Shown: piece after piece, positions 28,277 through 29,256 of the stretch
How positions within the stretch are numbered: position 1 is the first letter of the stretch
How the letters are laid out: each line of letters begins with the position of its first letter
NCBI GenBank assembly: GCA_016284295.1
Contig: JAEEOP010000003.1
Span: 1 to 51,974 of the forward strand
Direction of reading: 5' to 3'
Source of the DNA: Methanomassiliicoccaceae archaeon
Lineage (GTDB): Archaea > Thermoplasmatota > Thermoplasmata > Methanomassiliicoccales > Methanomethylophilaceae
Length of the DNA: 51,974 nt
The notes under the pieces: generated by a model
Told to the model about the DNA's origin: nothing
What the model saw: only the letters and a program-made list of their open reading frames with translations
The model's database searches: none
Program-made: the position numbers and the translations under genes

Positions 28277-29143
28277 TCACCTGACGGTCTTCATCCATGA
28301 CAGAAGGGAATCCGCTTCGTAACGGTAGGTGTTGACCTGGTCCTTGCTTCCGGAGACCTCTCCGCCCTTGAAGGACTTCTCCCACTTCTGTCCGAGGATT
28401 GTCCTGTATGCATCGAGGAACAGCGACGCGGGTTCGGCGAACGAGGAGTCCACGAACACCGTGCCGGCGACGAAGAACAGACGCTCGTTGCGGATGTCGG
28501 AGACCGCATCCCAGTTGGATTGCGTCATCCCTCCCTGGATGGATTCCACATCCTTCCGGCACTCCTCGAGGAACTCCGAGCAGCCAGCCATGAATGCCCC
28601 CTTCAGCTCCGGATCCGTGAAGTAGGGTTCAATCCTCTTCCTGATCTCGTACAGCCTCACGTTCTCTATATCCGCGGGCTTGACCTTCCTGTAGGTGACG
28701 TAGACCCGCTTGAAGTCCCTGTCCCTCTCGGACAGATAGTTGCTGACGTACGTGCGGAGCAGCTCTGTGTAATCCTCCTTCGTAAGAGCAACGGATGCCT
28801 TCGGCATGCTGCGGGCGATGGCCGCGAACGAAGACGCTTTCTTGAAGTCCTTGTCGAGCAGCGCCACGTACTTCACAAGCAGAGGGGCGGGATCCGTGCT
28901 GTCCAGGTCGGATGCCTTGTCGGCGTACTCCAGGGCTGTGATGTAATCCTTGTTCCTGATGCACTGCACCGCGGCACGTACCGCATCGGTGAACTCATTG
29001 CCCTTCTTCATGGACGAGTATTCCGAGGAGGACATCTCCTTCTCGACCGGGGCCCCGCAGAATTCGCAATAGCACATGTTCCTGCCCGCAGGCATCTAGA
29101 TCGGTGCACCGCAGCTCGGACACTTCAGAGTGATGATAGCCAT
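28277..29143 (-). CDS. Zinc-ribbon / TPR-like protein with in-frame amber codon (possible pyrrolysine)
   Basis: From ATG 29143 the frame reads MAIITLKCPSCGAPI, then TAG at 29098-29096, then MPAGRNMCYCEFCGAPVEK and 260 more residues to TGA. The two cysteine knuckles of one zinc ribbon, CPSC (residues 8-11) and CEFC (26-29), lie on opposite sides of the TAG with normal spacing, so the domain is complete only if TAG is decoded (residue 16). The rest looks helical and TPR-like (DYITALEYADKASDLDSTDP). Restart at the ATG after the TAG would lose half the zinc site and has no ribosome binding site. Pyrrolysine insertion, low readthrough or a recent nonsense mutation are the alternatives. It is convergent with the SPFH operon. 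Confidence 0.7.
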
Positions 29144-29256
29144 ACATTCACCGCCCGGACCCGATATGGGCCGGCATCCGCGACATCTGCATCATACGAC
29201 ATAAAACCATGCGAAAACGTCGATGCCAGACATCATTCGGTTCAGTCCGACGAACC

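Follow-up and report, generated by a model that had tools for sequence, protein, structure and literature searches.

An in-frame TAG between the knuckles of a zinc ribbon as a candidate pyrrolysine codon in a Methanomassiliicoccaceae archaeon

A gene encoding a zinc-ribbon protein in a Methanomassiliicoccaceae archaeon (assembly GCA_016284295.1, contig JAEEOP010000003.1) carries one in-frame TAG at codon 16, and, judging from the sequence, readthrough of this UAG with pyrrolysine at a tolerant position is very probably the best explanation. The gene, located in the 51,974-nucleotide stretch analyzed here (hereafter the window), would yield one full-length 288-residue protein composed of an N-terminal four-cysteine zinc ribbon and a helical domain, with codon 16 presumably decoded efficiently by the endogenous pyl machinery, which would insert pyrrolysine. 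The TAG probably stems from one substitution in a sense codon, for instance CAG (Gln) or GAG (Glu), at a position that varies, and it may be tolerated since this genome would treat UAG as sense. No special role for the pyrrolysine residue is indicated. The features of the gene are listed below.

28277..29143, minus strand: gene for the zinc-ribbon and helical-domain protein, 288 codons with one in-frame TAG, plus TGA (frame, homology, alignment and model)
29096..29098, minus strand: in-frame TAG, codon 16, proposed pyrrolysine codon (sequence; one TAG inside the homology match)
29148..29152, minus strand: Shine-Dalgarno-like GGTGA, 4 nt upstream of ATG 29143 (sequence and duplex energy)
29141..29143, minus strand: start codon ATG, aligned to orthologue N-termini (alignment and ribosome site)
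29111..29122, minus strand: first zinc knuckle CPSC, residues 8-11 (translation and alignment)
29057..29068, minus strand: second zinc knuckle CEFC, residues 26-29 (translation and alignment)
29093..29095, minus strand: ATG adjoining the TAG, a possible start of a truncated 272-aa product, without a clear ribosome site
28280..29029, minus strand: all-helical C-terminal domain, residues 39-288, TPR-like at best (model; weak fold matches only)

On the minus strand, ATG 29143 begins MAIITLKCPSCGAPI, whose 15 codons are followed by TAG 29098-29096, after which ATG 29095-29093 and 271 more sense codons lead to TGA 28279-28277. An earlier note, made from the letters alone, had described the same start, TAG and onward frame, which are confirmed, except that 255 codons lie downstream of MPAGRNMCYCEFCGAPV rather than the 260 it gave. 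Its observation that the gene bears no other lesion also holds, since the 288 codons contain the single TAG and no further stop. Two CxxC knuckles, C8/C11 and C26/C29, lie on opposite sides of the TAG, so that one half of the ribbon falls on either side, and the four cysteines are invariant in a four-row alignment of the protein with its orthologues, in agreement with the proposal that the ribbon is whole only if the TAG is translated.

A rival reading of the 5' end has translation start instead at ATG 29095, giving a 272-residue protein with the TAG lying within a leader or ending a leader peptide. This ATG adjoins the TAG and is the one picked by a caller that treats TAG as a stop, yet such a protein would lack half of its zinc ribbon. 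Homology to orthologue N-termini also extends over the 15 codons upstream of the TAG: compared with the start of orthologue L014 (BLOSUM62, ungapped), they score 70 with 11 of 15 residues identical, and no other among 627,699 stop-free 15-codon stretches (six frames, 452-kb sample) reaches this value, the runner-up scoring 45, which argues that the match is more than chance. Their codon-usage score (-1.2) carries no signal of its own. Moreover, the strong ribosome site belongs to ATG 29143, where GGTGA with a 4-nt spacer forms a duplex of -11.4 kcal/mol, a strength found at 6% of 254 called ATG starts and 1.2% of 1260 random ATGs, whereas the duplex at ATG 29095 (-5.4) is unremarkable and is equalled by 46% of called and 34% of random ATGs (an assumed 16S tail sequence was used for these energies). 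A start at ATG 29095 is therefore considered very unlikely. RNA structure downstream of the TAG, of the PYLIS type, did not exceed chance (z 0.08) and was rejected as a recoding signal; the mtmB control was likewise weak (z -0.76).

Full-length orthologues were found in three of 30 other genomes of the genus, so the gene was found in 4 of 31 (many of which are drafts), or in 4 of 17 when the more complete genomes are considered, and it is thus dispensable in many genomes. The three orthologues are 39-41% identical to the protein, can be aligned with it both before and after the TAG, and retain all four zinc cysteines. The copies in G018 and G030 are followed on the 3' side by the same two genes as here; neither of these genes lies within the 1.5-kb flanks of the third. 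In wider searches, among 102 genomes of the family, 19 had a match at E <= 1e-6 and four, including the window itself, were full-length, and among 100 relatives, 27 had a match at E <= 0.001, again with four full-length including the window. A contig scan using the post-TAG part of the protein as query gave no further orthologues, and one using the alignment as query gave 48 loci, of which L063 alone matched full length and, its contig being equal in length to that of G018, was taken as the same gene.

None of the three full-length orthologues has TAG at codon 16. Their codons are GAA, CAG and CAG (Glu or Gln), which fits a TAG that originated in this genome through one change, and UAG is thus not conserved across orthologues in the way known for catalytic pyrrolysine of the methylamine methyltransferase type. 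The position also appears tolerant, as had been suggested earlier: 11 different residues (Pro 10, Gln 9, all CAG, Lys 6, Glu 4, Asn 4, and others) occupy position 16 in 45 distinct ribbons, which are motif matches in 45 loci of the order after removal of repeated loci, the motif also catching other ribbons there. A stop at this position was never seen in those 45 ribbons, nor in 143 ribbons of 48 wider loci. At about 40% identity, even the nearest orthologue is too distant to set a bound on when the TAG appeared.

The main rival is a recent nonsense mutation, in which the TAG still terminates and this strain makes a 15-residue peptide or nothing useful. Sense codons in the orthologues are compatible with such an event, as is the failure to find the gene in 27 of the 31 genomes searched in the genus, many of them drafts, which implies that its loss is tolerated; as the collections searched yielded no close orthologue, such a mutation keeps some probability on sequence grounds. 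Against it stand the 288 codons with no second lesion, the complete pyl system, the rarity of TAG as a stop and the presence of similar TAGs in well conserved genes, and overall we regard a nonsense mutation as unlikely.

The genome is a 1.857-Mb draft in 45 contigs, 95% complete with an estimated contamination of 2.67%. The absence of pyl genes had been named beforehand as fatal to the pyrrolysine proposal; in fact tRNA-Pyl (pylT, anticodon CTA) is present, and pylS, pylB, pylC and pylD lie in a row at L043:3084-6935 (contig C36), each above its NCBIfam cut-off (TIGR02367, TIGR03910, TIGR03909 and TIGR03911, respectively). They are preceded by mtmB, which has a TAG at codon 202 and matches the MtmB model end to end, with a Pfam score of 692 bits across the TAG. 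PylS is short (273 aa), and this, together with the gene set, fits Methanomassiliicoccales. Two small SMR-type transporter genes were also observed directly 3' of pylD (L043:6999-7663, plus strand).

The use of TAG was surveyed in a sample consisting of the window and twenty 20-kb stretches (451,974 bases in total, or about 24% of the genome), in which genes were called by a purpose-written codon-usage caller treating TAG as a stop. Among 386 called genes, 347 end in TGA, 28 in TAA and 11 in TAG; over all frames of the sample, 5,226 of the 25,014 stop triplets are TAG, a tally that includes one stray 290-letter protein record, of which the gene counts are free. Within the window, 42 of 43 called genes end in TGA, one in TAA and none in TAG, which bears out the earlier remark that no neighbour uses TAG as its stop. 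Five of the 11 TAG-ended genes run on as strong coding sequence: mtmB, and genes for an Lhr-type helicase, a CobN/Mg-chelatase, a periplasmic binding protein and a TPR protein. The remaining six comprise five weak calls (scores 11.6-20.3) and one strong call, purD. UAG is accordingly avoided as a terminator, ending at most 6 of 381 genes in this 24% sample, one of them a strong call. The purD gene (L062:4230-5552, plus strand) ends TAG GCA TGA; its TAG is either a stop backed up by the TGA or a codon that is read through, adding two residues.

Together with the decarboxylase-like gene described below and the zinc-ribbon gene itself, the five run-on genes bring the number of in-frame-TAG genes in the sample to seven, six of which are non-methyltransferase genes. 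Those other than mtmB and the zinc-ribbon gene are as follows.

L047:9414-13166, minus strand: CobN/Mg-chelatase-type gene, in-frame TAG at codon 563, spanned by one Pfam domain
L045:16641-19355, plus strand: Lhr-type helicase, in-frame TAG at codon 537, between two Lhr-type domains
L047:6395-7459, plus strand: periplasmic binding protein, in-frame TAG at codon 131, within a Pfam domain
L052:2-2470, minus strand: TPR protein, in-frame TAG at codon 216, the frame exceeding the fetched stretch
L052:5997-7445, minus strand: diaminobutyrate-decarboxylase-like gene, in-frame TAG at codon 21

Three of the five run-on genes (MtmB, CobN and the periplasmic binding protein) have their TAG inside one Pfam domain, and none of the Pfam stretches listed for the helicase and TPR genes crosses theirs. 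Nineteen genes that stop at TGA or TAA and have a coding extension in the same frame served as a control, and a Pfam stretch was seen across the stop in none (Pfam gave no match for two of them; the tables give the best stretch per family, and two cases with a second stretch were checked separately). In 16 of these 19, a called neighbour gene starts inside the extension. These data bear on the possibility that a sequencing or assembly error made the TAG from a sense codon, for which the draft state of the genome, in 45 contigs, leaves room: the sampled quarter of the genome holds six other in-frame TAGs, an interrupted domain occurs in 0 of 19 TGA/TAA cases, and random errors would not select TAG alone. 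Such an error is thus extremely improbable; in a draft of 45 contigs with 2.67% contamination, a base error, or pyl genes derived from another organism, keeps a small residual probability.

The decarboxylase-like gene offers a close parallel. Eight other genomes of 41 searched contain matches of 78-84% identity without a stop, seven beginning at query residue 1 and one at residue 4. At the TAG site these relatives have Gln (two), Glu (four), Lys (one) or Arg (one), followed by Met in each, and the six codons that were read are CAG, GAG or AAG, each one base from TAG. The Pfam domain (residues 58-420) falls short of the TAG at codon 21; a longer NCBIfam match reaches it, but below the family cut-off. 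This TAG would be the same kind of change as that proposed for the zinc-ribbon gene. It is likewise followed by ATG, and because the corresponding Met is simply a conserved residue in 8 of 8 relatives, a TAG followed by ATG need not mean reinitiation; the pair was dropped as a reinitiation signature, and the same observation speaks against a start at ATG 29095. A more elaborate scheme would make the UAG a switch sensing pyrrolysine supply, the full ribbon protein being made with pyrrolysine and, without it, termination and reinitiation at the adjacent ATG giving a 272-residue form lacking a working ribbon, so that a regulator would be coupled to methylamine metabolism; this seems a most improbable arrangement.

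Under the preferred reading, readthrough with pyrrolysine, the predicted protein consists of the ribbon followed by helices. An AlphaFold2 model (input of four sequences) has a mean pLDDT of 82.5 and a pTM of 0.69, with pLDDT values of 62-79 over the ribbon, and Pfam scores for the ribbon are all sub-threshold (best 19.1 vs a cut-off of 25). A fold search for the C-terminal domain gave no PDB match at E <= 0.001, the best being 0.053 and the matches mostly TPR proteins, so that the modelled domain may be called TPR-like at best. The sole PDB sequence match, a designed protein (E 0.074), was set aside.

The earlier suggestion of a candidate pyrrolysine protein outside the methylamine methyltransferases is therefore supported by the pyl set, the depletion of TAG and the in-frame TAGs in other conserved genes. 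Gene calling with TAG as a stop truncates this gene and drops half of its zinc ribbon, and such genes are easily misannotated. The gene adds to the evidence that UAG may be an ordinary sense codon drifting into tolerant positions in some of these methanogens; if true, cells would depend on the pyl system for far more than the use of methylamines.

Pyrrolysine proteins outside the methylamine methyltransferases have already been predicted in print for this order, and the gene reported here is a further example, an ordinary rather than an exceptional case (PMC4153887, PMC5011839, PMC4824259). Table 7 of PMC4153887 gives 16 predicted non-methyltransferase pyrrolysine proteins for Ca. M. alvus, in which 1.6% of stops are TAG, and Borrel and co-workers argued there that in this organism an amber codon, once it appears within a coding sequence, would be stably kept. 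M. luminyensis, of the same order, is described in the corresponding part of that paper as having no such predicted proteins beyond the methyltransferases and 11.3% TAG stops, so that the habit of in-frame TAGs is not general in the order. In addition, 46 in-frame-amber genes are stated for ISO4-H5 (PMC5011839), and 25 predicted pyrrolysine proteins, nine of them methyltransferases, for ISO4-G1 (PMC4824259). The present case resembles these predicted Methanomassiliicoccales proteins in its in-frame TAG, several of them also having amber-free homologues in relatives, in the very low use of TAG as a stop and in the complete pyl genes. It differs in its family, as a zinc ribbon with a helical domain is neither named in Table 7 of PMC4153887 nor found in the portions of PMC5011839 and PMC4824259 compared, a comparison that covers the named proteins of those lists.

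A literature search pairing pyrrolysine with zinc ribbon returned nothing related by title. Archaea using all TAG codons as pyrrolysine were reportedly described in 2025. In MtmB, MtbB and MttB, pyrrolysine takes part in catalysis and the amber codon is widespread; the zinc-ribbon protein is like them in that its UAG is predicted to be decoded as pyrrolysine by the same machinery, but differs in that the position is variable and the TAG occurs in this genome only among the genomes searched. A likeness in origin is provided by the tRNA-His guanylyltransferase of Methanosarcina, another protein in another order, in which pyrrolysine occupies a position thought to stem from neutral change, as may also be the case here.
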